From assembly GCF_024809975.1 (NCBI RefSeq), contig NZ_JANUDY010000002.1:558001-622000 (forward strand): a DNA stretch of 64,000 bases. The letters run 5' to 3'. Each line of letters opens with the position of its first letter. Position 1 is the first letter of the stretch. A program made the position numbers and the translations under genes. A model generated the notes under the pieces. That model saw nothing but the letters and a program-made list of their open reading frames with translations. It searched no databases and had not been told where the DNA came from. Of the stretch, positions 2,833 to 7,334 are shown piece after piece. This DNA is from Comamonas sp. BIGb0152 (GTDB taxonomy: Bacteria; Pseudomonadota; Gammaproteobacteria; Burkholderiales; Burkholderiaceae_C).

Positions 2833-3852
2833 TTGCCCCCTGCATCGGCCTTGTCCGTATTGCGTGCTTGGGGGCGCTGTTTTGGTCTGGATACTTCTGT
2901 GCTTGCCTTGTTGACCCGTCTTTTCCCCGTGTGGGCGGCTGTGATGGCCCTGCTTGCCTACAGCGCGCCTTCGGCGTTTCTGGGCTTCAAGCCCCATATC
3001 GCCCAGTTGCTGATGCTGATCATGTTCGCCATGGGTGTCACCCTGAGGCTGAGCGATTTCAGCCGCGTGCTGCAACGCCCGGCCCCGATTGCGGCTGGCC
3101 TGTTTCTGCATTACCTCATCATGCCCCTGGCAGCCTGGTTGATTGCCAAGGGCCTGGACATGCCGCCCGAGCTGACAGCAGGCATGGTGCTGGTGGGCAG
3201 TGTGGCCAGCGGCACCTCGTCGAATGTGATGATCTTTTTGTCCAAGGGCGATGTGGCGCTGTCGGTCACCATCAGTGCGCTGTCCACCCTCGTCGGCATT
3301 GTGGCCACGCCCCTGCTGGCGCGGCTCTATATCTCCGCATCCATCGATGTGCCGGTCAGCGCCCTCTTGATGGAGATTGCGCAGATCGTGCTGCTGCCCA
3401 TTGGCCTGGGCCTGCTGCTCAACCATTTCTGGCATGCCCAGATCAAACGCATTGAAGGCCTGCTGCCGCTGGTGTCGATGCTGGCGATTTTGCTGGTGCT
3501 CTCCACGGTGGTGGCCCTGAGCCGCGACCGCATTGCCACGGTGGGCGGCGTGGTGGTGGCGGGCGTCATTGCGCATAACCTGATTGGCTACCTGGGCGGC
3601 TACTGGGGCGGGCGCCTGCTGGGCTTTGACAAATCGGTCTGCCGCACCTTGGCGATCGAGGTGGGCATGCAGAACTCGGGCCTGGCCGCCAGCCTGGGTG
3701 CCAAGTTTTTCAGCCCCATGGCCGCGCTGCCGGGCGCCATTTTCTCGGTGTGGCACAACATCTCGGGATCGCTGCTGGCCGGTTACTGGTCCAGCCGCCC
3801 GACCGGCACGGCGAACGACCATGTGCGCCGCGAAGACGTTTCGCTGCACTGA
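2833..3852 (+). CDS. BASS family (bile acid:sodium symporter-like) transporter
   Basis: The protein of up to 339 residues has nine or ten hydrophobic helices and the family signature region: [15 protein letters not shown] (about residues 130-145) and [18 protein letters not shown] (about 275-293), as in YocS/PanS-like sodium symporters. The C-terminus [13 protein letters not shown] is also typical. Bacterial members move ketopantoate, bile acids or other organic anions; the substrate cannot be read from sequence. The start is uncertain: the frame opens with TTG at 2833, and a GTG at 2899 would give a length closer to the core family and a better match to the usual N-terminal helix. No good ribosome-binding site separates the choices. 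Confidence 0.85.
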
Positions 3853-3883
3853 CTCTGCGGCTTGCGCATCAGACACTATCCGT

Positions 3884-4759
3884 TCAGGCGTGTCCGCCCA
3901 GCGTATCAGCCCCCAACATGTGGCCGGTTCGGCTGCGGGCGCCTGCTACCAGGCCGCTGATGAGTTGCGCCTCGGGCAGGTTTTTCCAGTAGCGGCGCGG
4001 CATCTCGCGCAGCATGGCCTGCTCCTTGAGGCGCGCGGGGTTGAAGGTGGATTGGTAGTACGCCAGCCATAGCGCCTCACCCGCATCGGGCCCGGGTGCA
4101 TCCTGCGCCCTGCCCCCGGCTGCAAACTGCATCTGTTCCAGATCCCAGTGCACGCTGCACTGGGGCGTCAAAATCGCCCAGCGCATGCTGGTAAAGCGCC
4201 GCATGAAAAAGCCAGCGGCCTCCCGCACGCAGAAATGGTCGGGCTCGAACCAGGCGATATGCAGATCCCGGCCTTGTGCGTCTCGGCTGGGCCGAAAGCG
4301 TACAAAGGCATGCATTTTGTGGATGTCGCGCCCAACAGCCCTGGCCATGCGCTCAATCTCACGCCAATCGCCATCCAGCGCATCGCCCGCCAGGCCAGGC
4401 CATTGCTGCACCCGCCACAGCCAGCGGTAACACAGCGCAAAGCGCCCTGGGTGGCTGTGGCAGCAGGCGTTGCGCAACATGCCCAGCTGCGCGGCTTTGA
4501 GGCGTAGCGGCTGCCCGGGCGGGCAAGGCAACTGGTCCAACATGTCCGGCGTCAGTGCTTTGCCTGCCAGGCTCCCAGCAGCATCGGCGGCAAACAGGTC
4601 GTCGCCCACGCTTTGGTCACTCAAGGCATCCGACCACCGCCAGTGCAGTGCCTGCGGCTCGGCGTTGAGGGCCAGCAACACGCGGGCGGCCTGGCGAAAG
4701 CCGGCAAAATCATCCGGGCCGTCCAGCGCAATCACCAGGGAATCGGTGTGTGCCTGCAT
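3884..4759 (-). CDS. DUF4130 / TIGR03915-type putative DNA repair protein
   Basis: The protein has 291 residues and shows the hallmarks of the TIGR03915/DUF4130 family: HKMHAFVRFR in the middle, AWFEPDHFCVREAAGFFMRRF, then TPQCSVHWDLE, and near the C-terminus YYQSTFNPARL with MPRRYWKNLPEA. The family is defined largely by its partnership with a radical SAM protein, which here lies immediately upstream with a 3-nt gap, so the two form one transcription unit. In other bacteria the domain is also found fused to the uracil-DNA-binding UdgX protein (family knowledge), which points to DNA damage processing. The biochemical activity is not established. The ATG at 4759 directly follows the upstream stop, suggesting coupling. 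Confidence 0.88.
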   Translation of the reverse strand: MQAHTDSLVIALDGPDDFAGFRQAARVLLALNAEPQALHWRWSDALSDQSVGDDLFAADAAGSLAGKALTPDMLDQLPCPPGQPLRLKAAQLGMLRNACCHSHPGRFALCYRWLWRVQQWPGLAGDALDGDWREIERMARAVGRDIHKMHAFVRFRPSRDAQGRDLHIAWFEPDHFCVREAAGFFMRRFTSMRWAILTPQCSVHWDLEQMQFAAGGRAQDAPGPDAGEALWLAYYQSTFNPARLKEQAMLREMPRRYWKNLPEAQLISGLVAGARSRTGHMLGADTLGGHA

Positions 4760-4762
4760 GCT

Positions 4763-6091
4763 TTAGAACAGCGCCATTTGCGCGACCACGGGCAGCTGCA
4801 TGCCGCTGTGCTGCCGCTGGGTGCTGCCGTGTTGCATCTTGCCCAGCAACTGTTGACGCAGCGAGGTGCTATCGAGCATGCCCAGCGGCGGGTGGTAGTC
4901 ATCCAGCTCCACAAAGGGCAAGACCTTGCTGGTGGCGACCCGCAGTTGCTGCAAATCAGCCAGGCGCAGCCTGCGCACCATGCGTGCGGCCAACAGGCGC
5001 TGCACGCTGCCCACGCCCAGCCCGGGCACGCGCAGCAGCCACTGTTTGGGGGCACGGTTGAGGTCCACCGGAAAATGCTGGCGCTGCGACAGCGCCCAGG
5101 CCAGCTTGGGATCGAGCTCCAGATCCAGCATGCCGCCGGCCGCCGGCGCGGTGATTTCTGCATGGCTGAAGCCGTAAAAGCGCATCAGCCAATCAGCCTG
5201 GTAAAGCCGGTGTTCGCGGATCAGCGGCGGTGCCTGCAAAGGCAGATCAGCCGAGGCATCCGGGATGGGGCTGAAGGCGGAGTAATACACCCGCCGCAGG
5301 CGCTGCCCAGTGTAGAGCCCGCTGCTGGTGCGCAAAATGGTCGCGTCATTGGCGCTGTCGGCGCCCACAATCATTTGGGTGCTTTGGCCTGCCGGCGCAT
5401 AACGCGGTGCAGCAGCCCTTGCGGCCTGGCGCTGGCGCGGCATGGACACCAGTTTCCCATTCTGCTGGTCTTGCGTCTGCTGCCGCGCCACCTCGATGTG
5501 TTCCGCCACCTGGTGCATCGCCAACGCAATGCCAGCGGCATTCTTCTCGGGGGCCAACTGCGCCAGCCCTTGCTCGGTGGGCAGTTCTACATTGATGCTG
5601 AGCCGATCGGCATAGCGCCCCGCCTGGGCCAGCAGCTCGGGAGAGGCATCGGGAATGGTCTTGAGGTGGATATAGCCGCGAAAATCATGGTCTTCGCGCA
5701 GGCAGCGGGCGACTTCCACCAGCTGCTCCATCGTGTAGTCAGACGACTGGATGATGCCGCTCGATAGAAACAGGCCTTCGATGCAATTGCGGCGGTAAAA
5801 ATCGAGGGTGAGCGCCACCACCTCAGCCGCGCTGAACCGGGCGCGCTGCACGTTGGAGCTTTTGCGGTTGATGCAGTAGCGGCAATCGTAGATGCAGAAG
5901 TTGGTGAGCAGAATCTTGAGCAAGGAGACGCAGCGGCCGTCCGGCGTATAGCTGTGGCAGATGCCCATGCCCTCTGTCGACCCCATCCCCTTGCCACCCA
6001 AGGAATCGCGCGGCTTGCTACCGCTCGATGCACAGCTGGCATCGTATTTGGCGGCATCGGCCAGGATCTGAAGTTTGGCAAGGGTTTGCAT
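4763..6091 (-). CDS. TIGR03916-type putative DNA modification/repair radical SAM protein
   Basis: The 442-residue protein carries the radical SAM cluster motif CIYDCRYC (Cys66, Cys70, Cys73; CX3CX2C), followed by a TIM-barrel pattern (FLSSGI, YIHLKTIPDAS, SINVELP). Near residues 340-380 it has a helix-hairpin-helix segment (LRVPGLGVGSVQRLL), a sequence-independent DNA-binding motif. This architecture matches the putative DNA repair radical SAM family that pairs with TIGR03915, encoded directly downstream. By analogy with spore photoproduct lyase it may reverse or process a DNA lesion through a deoxyadenosyl radical; this is inference. A perfect CTGT-N8-ACAG box lies 8 nt upstream of the start, so SOS control is likely. 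No clear Shine-Dalgarno sequence is visible. Confidence 0.9.
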   Translation of the reverse strand: MQTLAKLQILADAAKYDASCASSGSKPRDSLGGKGMGSTEGMGICHSYTPDGRCVSLLKILLTNFCIYDCRYCINRKSSNVQRARFSAAEVVALTLDFYRRNCIEGLFLSSGIIQSSDYTMEQLVEVARCLREDHDFRGYIHLKTIPDASPELLAQAGRYADRLSINVELPTEQGLAQLAPEKNAAGIALAMHQVAEHIEVARQQTQDQQNGKLVSMPRQRQAARAAAPRYAPAGQSTQMIVGADSANDATILRTSSGLYTGQRLRRVYYSAFSPIPDASADLPLQAPPLIREHRLYQADWLMRFYGFSHAEITAPAAGGMLDLELDPKLAWALSQRQHFPVDLNRAPKQWLLRVPGLGVGSVQRLLAARMVRRLRLADLQQLRVATSKVLPFVELDDYHPPLGMLDSTSLRQQLLGKMQHGSTQRQHSGMQLPVVAQMALF

Positions 6092-6098
6092 AGAACAA

Positions 6099-6114
6099 CT
6101 GTATGTAATTACAG
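6099..6114 (-). promoter_or_regulatory. LexA (SOS) box upstream of the radical SAM repair gene
   Basis: The sequence CTGT-ATGTAATT-ACAG is an exact match to the CTGT-N8-ACAG LexA box known from enterobacteria and beta-proteobacteria. It ends 8 nt before the start codon of the radical SAM gene, a position where bound LexA would block transcription. Confidence 0.75.
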
Positions 6115-6265
6115 TATTCTAGCAAAATGGAAAGGTGCTGCACAGCGCTGGCTGCTCCCTTTGCAGCCCTCAGCAGCCCGAGGCTTCCGATTCAGCCTCT
6201 GCAGCAGACGCCTGCACCCGCAAGTGCAGAGGGAACTGGCCAAGCACCTCAGCCAGGAATGCATC

Positions 6266-6303
6266 AATGCCAATAACTGTATATAAATACAGCTATTGGC
6301 ATT
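6266..6303. promoter_or_regulatory. 38-bp near-perfect palindrome containing a second LexA-type box
   Basis: CTGT-ATATAAAT-ACAG at 6277-6292 is one base from the E. coli LexA consensus core. It sits in a larger inverted repeat: AATGCCAATA at 6266-6275 pairs exactly with TATTGGCATT at 6294-6303. The 6092-6353 gap separates the radical SAM gene from the end of the Bug receptor gene, so the element could be a second operator or the 3' hairpin of the Bug transcript. No T-tract follows on either strand, which disfavours a plain terminator. Confidence 0.55.
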
Positions 6304-6353
6304 TGCATCTACTAACTAGGCGCAACCAGGGCGCTACGGAGGTGCTAGCGCTG

Positions 6354-7334
6354 TCAGCTCTGCGGCCCCAGCTTTGCCAGAACGGCCTTTTCCTTGACGG
6401 AGGATTCCGCGGCAAACTTCTTGTAGTCGGCACTGTTCATATAGATCGGCAGCATCTCAAAGCGCTGCAGCATGGCCTGGTAGCTTTCCATCTCCATGGC
6501 CTCCTTGAAGGCCTTGTGCAAGGTGGTTTGCACATCGGCCGGCAAGCCCTTGGGGCCCACCAGGCCAAAGGGCGAGTACTGCGTGGTGGGCAGGCCCAAC
6601 TCGATCAAGGTGGGAGTATTGGGCAAGGTCGGCAGGCGTTTTTCAGTCCAGACATTCAAGGCCACCATGCGGCCCTGGTCCACATAGGGAATGACGGCGC
6701 TGGTGTCGGCGGCGACCATCACCTCACCGGCCATCGTCGCGCGCATCAGCTCGGACGAGCCCTTGTAGGGCACATGCACCACATCCAGACCCAGCTGCTG
6801 CGCAATGATGGCCGAGGTCACATGGGGTGAGGTGTAGGTGCCGGTATTGCCCAGGGTGAGTTTGCCCGGATTGGCTTTGGCCCAGGCCACCACATCCTTC
6901 CAGCTCTTGAGCCCGGACTGCGTGCTGGCCACCATGCAAAACGCATAGCCGGTGACATTGATGATGTAGCTCAGGTCTTCTACCGGGTTCCATTTGAGGC
7001 CGGTGGTAAAGGGCAGACGCATCACACTCATCGGCAACTGGGCGATGGTGTAGCCATCAGCGGCGGTGTTTTGCAATTGGGCGCTGGGAAGCGAGCCTGC
7101 CGCGCCGGGCCGGTTCTCCACCACAATCGGCTGGCCCAGCACCTTGGCGGCGTTCTCGGCCAACTGGCGCATGGTCAGATCAGTGGGCCCCCCTGCCGGA
7201 AAAGCCACCACCAGCTTGATGGGCCGGCTCGGAAAAGTCTTGCTGGCATGGGCCAGCGAGGCACCAGCCCCCATCCATGCACCGGCTGCCGTGGCGGCCC
7301 CTGCTTGCAGCATGCTTCTGCGCGTCAACACCAT
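6354..7334 (-). CDS. Bug-family periplasmic solute-binding protein (TctC-type)
   Basis: The protein has 327 residues. It begins with a twin-arginine-like leader (TRRSMLQAG, then an Ala-rich stretch ending SLAHA) and continues with FPSRPIKLVVAFPAGGPTDLTMR, the Bug signature, then GQPIVVENRPGAAG and VPYKGSSE. Bug proteins bind carboxylated or cyclic metabolites in the periplasm and may feed a tripartite tricarboxylate transporter, but no TctA/TctB genes are in this window. The ATG at 7334 is preferred over the longer open frame because a GGAGA lies upstream and it places the signal peptide correctly. A second Bug gene lies 146 nt upstream on the same strand. Confidence 0.9.
   Translation of the reverse strand: MVLTRRSMLQAGAATAAGAWMGAGASLAHASKTFPSRPIKLVVAFPAGGPTDLTMRQLAENAAKVLGQPIVVENRPGAAGSLPSAQLQNTAADGYTIAQLPMSVMRLPFTTGLKWNPVEDLSYIINVTGYAFCMVASTQSGLKSWKDVVAWAKANPGKLTLGNTGTYTSPHVTSAIIAQQLGLDVVHVPYKGSSELMRATMAGEVMVAADTSAVIPYVDQGRMVALNVWTEKRLPTLPNTPTLIELGLPTTQYSPFGLVGPKGLPADVQTTLHKAFKEAMEMESYQAMLQRFEMLPIYMNSADYKKFAAESSVKEKAVLAKLGPQS

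Follow-up and report, generated by a model that had tools for sequence, protein, structure and literature searches.

SOS control of gene pairs like the one described here is already in the literature, as comparative genomics. The available text of PMC8565304, citing work on Verrucomicrobia and Caulobacter, places a COG1573-COG4277 operon in the inferred SOS network of Bacteroidetes, and that of PMC3828012 proposes LexA control of CAC3343-CAC3344 in Clostridium acetobutylicum, a prediction made in another phylum from footprinting and expression. On this point the initial annotation of this locus needs a correction: SOS control of such a pair is not new. Like our pair, the Bacteroidetes operon (whose COG4277 we take to be the same radical SAM family as TIGR03916) is under inferred LexA control, and there it joins a UDG-family gene to its partner; the difference is that our pair has DUF4130 alone, without UDG, and a beta-type LexA box. 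What is new here, then, is a UdgX-less member of the group with a LexA box of the betaproteobacterial type.

UdgX has been described in its own right (PMC10359453, PMC10776899), and its motifs are shared by the glycosylase fused to DUF4130 in 68 of our orthologues, while UdgX is absent from the genome that carries our locus. The terms operon, fused, SOS and radical SAM do not occur in the searched text of these two papers, and the available part of PMC10359453 calls the physiological role of UdgX largely unknown. Radical SAM genes of unstated family are found in LexA regulons (PMC7739468, PMC9380542), the family annotation is merely listed in PMC8307549 and PMC9611098, and TIGR03914 occurs in PMC13212565, in each case in the portion of the text that was available. 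Our literature search, which covered mostly papers outside subscription, returned no paper testing the chemistry of the pair, and none linking UdgX, the radical SAM family and SOS by name.

The gene pair and its putative LexA box

The window, by which we mean the whole 64,000-nucleotide stretch of DNA analysed, contains the following features.

3884-4759, minus strand: DUF4130 gene, TIGR03915, 291 aa, without a UDG domain (NCBIfam 193.3 bits against a cut-off of 112.25)
4763-6091, minus strand: radical SAM gene, TIGR03916 rSAM_link_UDG, 442 aa (NCBIfam 547.8 bits against a cut-off of 343.5; Pfam Radical_SAM)
4979-5062, minus strand: helix-hairpin-helix region, residues 344-371 (weak profile matches, ComEA E 0.014 and RuvA E 0.06)
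5873-5896, minus strand: CX3CX2C motif, C66, C70 and C73, invariant in 65 of 65 aligned proteins
5930-6034, minus strand: C20, C45 and C54, which may bind a second Fe-S cluster; all three invariant in 65 of 65 aligned proteins
6099-6114, no strand assigned: putative LexA box CTGTATGTAATTACAG, an exact CTGT-N8-ACAG (pattern search; conservation in orthologues)
6116-6124, minus strand: extended -10-like element TGCTAGAAT, read by eye, which would place the transcript start inside the box
6258-6309, minus strand: 52-nt hairpin around the second match (z -7.26)
6277-6292, no strand assigned: second exact CTGT-N8-ACAG match, at the centre of the hairpin, role uncertain (pattern search)

Profile scores and coordinates agree with the initial annotation of a radical SAM gene followed, after a 3-nt gap (4760-4762), by a DUF4130 gene. 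TIGR03916 is the sole NCBIfam model to reach E 0.001 for the radical SAM protein, and the product of the downstream gene scores 113.6 against a cut-off of 27 with Pfam DUF4130. The CX3CX2C cluster proposed there is present at residues 66, 70 and 73, and the C-terminal helix-hairpin-helix is recovered through the weak ComEA and RuvA matches. The box at 6099-6114 is a perfect copy of CTGT-N8-ACAG, which we take to be the betaproteobacterial LexA motif; its distance to the radical SAM start codon, given earlier as 8 nt, is 7 nt (6092-6098).

Taken by itself this box is weak evidence and proves little, because chance alone would give 0.71 exact matches in 64 kb, and 16 of 100 shuffles hold two or more. 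What counts as evidence is its position at the start codon together with its retention in orthologues. From the genome-wide number of sites, the probability of finding one in the 50 nt preceding a single named gene is about 4e-4. As for the -10-like element at 6116-6124, a promoter scan of 3800-6500 returned no promoter.

The second exact match, at 6277-6292, was absent from the initial annotation. The hairpin around it is not among the results of a terminator scan, and it possibly marks the end of the upstream gene's transcript. Among 17 sites examined, its outer symmetry stands out, with 10 of 12 positions paired against at most 7 at any of the other 16, and because no other site in this set has such an extended hairpin-like symmetry, we do not count 6277-6292 as a proven or tandem operator. 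A tandem arrangement is also disfavoured by two loci of the same genus, L116 and L118, which have one box each (150 nt and 400 nt scanned). We likewise set aside a small gene between the two boxes, where there are short frames only, without supporting evidence, and a repeat element around the second box, which is single-copy in the genome.

Conservation of the putative operator in the genome and across clades

CTGT-N8-ACAG is found 39 times in the whole 5.0-Mb genome, and its reversed control pattern 16 times. Neighbouring genes were looked at for 17 of the 39 sites, namely the window's two and 15 sites in 14 fetched stretches that had been picked mostly for AT-rich cores. Genes starting beside boxes include recA, uvrA, parE (a partial frame with parE_Gneg as its best model) and those for a FAN1-domain protein, a PA0069-family radical SAM protein and a DUF3224 protein; several boxes adjoin genes unconnected with repair or without a family match, such as those for an MlaD-type protein and an ABC transporter. 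The genome also has a lexA gene (218.4 bits), upstream of which lie three one-mismatch boxes, two of them CTGG-N8-ACAG. The same substitution on the other strand, CTGT-N8-CCAG, is found at several betaproteobacterial orthologues of our locus, and this recurrence makes one-mismatch boxes plausible.

Some individual sites in this genome can be recorded here. One perfect box lies 34 nt before parE, the topoisomerase IV gene (L022, C3:369271), and SOS control of parCE has been reported for Bacteroidetes (PMC8565304, available text). Another perfect box stands 5 nt ahead of the PA0069-family radical SAM gene, measured to the called frame (L021, C3:267246), and two perfect boxes, 35 nt apart, precede a gene for a 97-aa protein without a family match (L020, C3:250374 and 250409).

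Our orthologue set comprises 97 loci, namely the 80 best-ranking of at least 594 relatives, together with 17 from members of the order (21 of 300 genomes had a match, 18 above the cut-off), own genome included. Boxes were counted in a stretch reaching from 150 nt upstream of the start to 25 nt past it, with the same loci's other windows as background; L033, which has 1 nt of upstream DNA, was dropped from this count, and L127-L131 were unused. Clades were assigned from titles, the Alphaproteobacteria by exclusion, with two of their loci placed at phylum level only. The initial annotation had held that absence of the box from orthologues in related species would count against LexA control, and the locus passes this check. 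In the Betaproteobacteria, CTGT-N8-ACAG is present in exact form at 20 of 34 loci (19 of 33 without our own, L119), against 1 of 1010 background windows, and with up to one mismatch at 27 of 34, against 34 of 1010; 14 of the 34 thus lack the exact box and 7 lack even the one-mismatch form. Three betaproteobacterial loci, L112, L113 and L115, bear GAACGATCGTAC, GTACGAACGTAC and GAACGAACGTAC, respectively, 15 nt before the start, and these sites resemble a non-canonical betaproteobacterial LexA motif reportedly described by Sanchez-Alberola in 2015.

The Alphaproteobacteria carry their own LexA repeat in exact form at 44 of 48 loci, GAAC-N7-GAAC at 34 (background 5 of 1775 windows) and GTTC-N7-GTTC, an alphaproteobacterial LexA motif according to the available text of PMC8565304, at 10 (3 of 1775). 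Exact copies of the other clade's motif number 0 of 34 in the beta loci and 0 of 48 in the alpha loci. Neither motif is found at any of 11 loci from Xanthomonadales; among the other Gammaproteobacteria, three loci in all, CTGT-N8-ACAG is present exactly at one and with one mismatch at another. A wider rule, CTGT-N8-[AC]CAG or either alpha repeat, holds at 72 of the 97 loci, and nothing recognisably box-like was seen at seven (L031, L063, L066, L079, L110, L111 and L114). A binomial estimate of this conservation is vanishingly small, a figure we do not take as a probability because the loci, being the 80 closest relatives and members of the order, are related. Overall, the genes beside boxes in the genome and the conservation of the box, with its change of motif from clade to clade, strongly support LexA control of the pair as a DNA-repair unit.

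At 8 of 17 named betaproteobacterial loci (L030, L032, L034, L041, L043, L046, L047 and L059; four exact boxes, four with one mismatch) the box overlaps the aligned GTG start by one base. This leaves no room for a ribosome-binding site, and leaderless LexA-controlled transcripts are a possible reading of these sequences. As for mobile elements, 158 plasmid and 10 phage records contain matches to the protein, and a near-search of plasmids gave 35 partial Phaeobacter matches. Seven further loci were fetched from the mobile-element matches (Acinetobacter, Parabacteroides, Subdoligranulum, Fusobacterium, Gemmatirosa and two gut phage scaffolds), and none of the seven has a recognised box within 200 nt by any of seven box patterns.

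Xanthomonadaceae have a different palindrome, GTCTCA-N5-TGAGAC, exactly 22 nt before the radical SAM start at 9 of 9 loci (L035, L037, L038, L042, L050 and L052-L055; seven exact, two with one mismatch), against 6 of 646 background windows when as many as three mismatches are tolerated. Allowing one mismatch, it occurs 9, 1, 5 and 13 times in the four genomes searched (those behind L037, L042, L050 and L052), and its reversed control 0 times in each. Genes were looked at beside 26 of these 28 sites, the other two being copies before the radical SAM gene itself. In at least one genome the neighbours include uvrA, umuD, imuA, nrdA, dnaB, mraZ, a DEAH-box helicase gene and a PA0069-family radical SAM gene, some of these copies having been identified solely by eye; further sites lie beside genes that are unnamed or without a match; in X. 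pisi the sole site is the one before the radical SAM operon. Five lexA-like loci of the family bear other sites, TTAGTAGTA(A/T)TACTACTAA or GTGTACAAATGTACAC, and GTCTCA-N5-TGAGAC is a possible DNA-damage operator distinct from the lexA autoregulatory sites. Since the palindrome also precedes these genes, the operon seems tied to a damage-type regulon in the Xanthomonadaceae too, through this putative operator. Separately, a second palindrome, CTGAA-N3-TTCAG with no more than one mismatch, is seen 44-55 nt ahead of the start at 6 of 12 gammaproteobacterial loci examined (L050, L052, L054, L055, L037 and L038; background 1 of 646 windows).

Retention of the switch in many relatives, despite the altered DNA sequence, makes a DNA-repair role likely, and the conserved pair at 3884-6091 is very probably a LexA-controlled DNA-repair pair. 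The NCBI family name does leave modification or repair open, and the pair might make a DNA modification instead of mending damage; however, the LexA-type boxes proper to each class and the UdgX fusion of the partner point to damage, and we regard a modification system as unlikely.

A conserved pair with and without UdgX

A same-strand DUF4130 match accompanies the radical SAM gene at 96 of 97 loci. In 69 of the 95 loci scored (L108 and L120 have no UDG score), a glycosylase with a UDG motif follows DUF4130, and in 68 it is of the UdgX type, with GEQPG, which is UdgX motif A (PMC10359453, available text), and the R-loop histidine. The remaining one, L114, has GEAPG instead of GEQPG, and the locus ends before the R-loop; it is scored as having the domain. 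TIGR03914, named 'UdgX family' in NCBIfam, is matched by 17 of 27 partners scanned. The window's own partner has no UdgX domain, and a search of the whole genome gave no TIGR03914 match. Three UDG-family proteins of this genome were considered as UdgX and rejected (by eye, one is of the UNG type and two are others), and a box was absent from their loci even when one mismatch was allowed.

On a quick tree of the 97 radical SAM proteins the state with or without UdgX changes at least 13 times, gain and loss being indistinguishable. From the lack of UdgX in our genome and from the UDG-less loci, radical SAM and DUF4130 are predicted to be the core, and UdgX an addition that comes or goes. The alternative is that capture of uracil or abasic sites by UdgX is the purpose of the full system, which radical SAM and DUF4130 would help or reset. 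The near-uniform UdgX signature of the fused partners, 68 of 69, speaks for it; yet 26 of the 95 scored loci have no UDG motif, 17 of these 26 keep the box by the wider rule, and our own genome does without UdgX, so we rate this reading, too, as unlikely, on a par with modification.

DUF4130 itself is modelled confidently (pLDDT 90.6). Against the PDB the model gave nothing that reached E 0.001, the best hit being E 0.064, and sequence comparison turned up no credible match; the fold may be new among solved structures.

Cysteines and fold of the radical SAM protein

Two of our alignments, A1 and A2, hold 65 rows hand-chosen from the 97 loci, and a third, A3, holds 27. The three invariant N-terminal cysteines, C20, C45 and C54, suggest that the protein has a second Fe-S cluster. 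Their pattern is also seen, by eye, in the Acinetobacter, Parabacteroides, Subdoligranulum and Fusobacterium relatives, and it is missing from the Gemmatirosa protein, a distant one at 35% identity. Three N-terminal cysteines ahead of the radical SAM motif are the layout of lipoyl synthase and MiaB; both are also among the fold matches of our protein, and the spacing differs. The structural model has a mean pLDDT of 84.0 and is low at residues 20-53, the N-terminal cysteine loop; its matches, none with a TM-score to the query above 0.40, include HydE, HydG, MgmA, TsrM, lipoyl synthase and MiaB.

The initial annotation had drawn, as an inference, an analogy to spore photoproduct lyase (SPL); an enzyme of that kind would directly reverse a UV thymine lesion. 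Like SplB, our protein is a radical SAM protein linked to DNA repair and SOS. In SPL, a conserved cysteine after the radical SAM motif is the hydrogen donor. In our alignment, by contrast, the only column after C73 with cysteine in ten or more rows is 103 (21 of 65), so that no cysteine past the motif is conserved, and the protein has extra N-terminal cysteines and a helix-hairpin-helix that set it apart from SplB. SPL is not among the best 50 fold matches listed, TIGR03916 alone reaches E 0.001 in NCBIfam, and the genome has, in addition, a PA0069-family radical SAM gene preceded by a box of its own. From the available literature, splB is apparently under SOS control in alpha- and betaproteobacteria, predicted by the same argument from divergent LexA motifs (PMC3323433), and in Acinetobacter Tol 5 a gene annotated as the TIGR03916-type family goes up when the cells are severely dried (PMC13130816). 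On balance the analogy is not supported, and an SPL-like activity is improbable. That the box at 6099-6114 is merely one of the chance matches expected in 64 kb is the least credible alternative of all, its conservation being far above background and its place being at the start codon.

A proposed LexA-repressed operon for radical DNA repair

Overall, we believe the locus as a whole is best explained as a LexA-repressed two-gene operon for radical DNA repair, with a probability of roughly 0.7. Building on the genes, the box and its conservation, the domains, the invariant cysteines and the absence of UdgX, all established computationally, we infer the following sequence of events. Consider first an undamaged cell, in which LexA would sit on 6099-6114, over the likely transcript start. 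Upon DNA damage LexA would be cleaved and both genes induced and made together. The radical SAM protein would then bind DNA through its C-terminal helix-hairpin-helix, the cluster at C66, C70 and C73 would generate a 5'-deoxyadenosyl radical, and C20, C45 and C54 would probably hold a second cluster. DUF4130, its near-constant partner, would join it in a complex and present the damaged site, a DNA lesion being the presumed substrate, while in most scored relatives the UdgX carried on DUF4130 would bind uracil or abasic sites covalently. Since a lineage without UdgX keeps the pair, the radical step, and not uracil capture, would be the core of the pathway, and its chemistry is probably unusual.

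A bolder version, which we put forward as an unlikely but specific proposal, is that the pair represents a new class of SOS-induced radical repair, wherein a damaged or abasic site is the direct target of a two-cluster radical SAM protein with DUF4130, and a fused UdgX, present in most relatives, holds that site covalently for the radical SAM protein to act there or to release the crosslink. UdgX is a suicide enzyme when isolated; if the proposal is true, it would function as a component of repair machinery. Regardless of this proposal, a box kept across the change of LexA motif argues for a response of the pair to DNA damage, and the version without UdgX in our genome would be the simplest form in which the radical step could be tested alone. 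The pair is widespread, and both its chemistry and the physiological role of UdgX are at stake.
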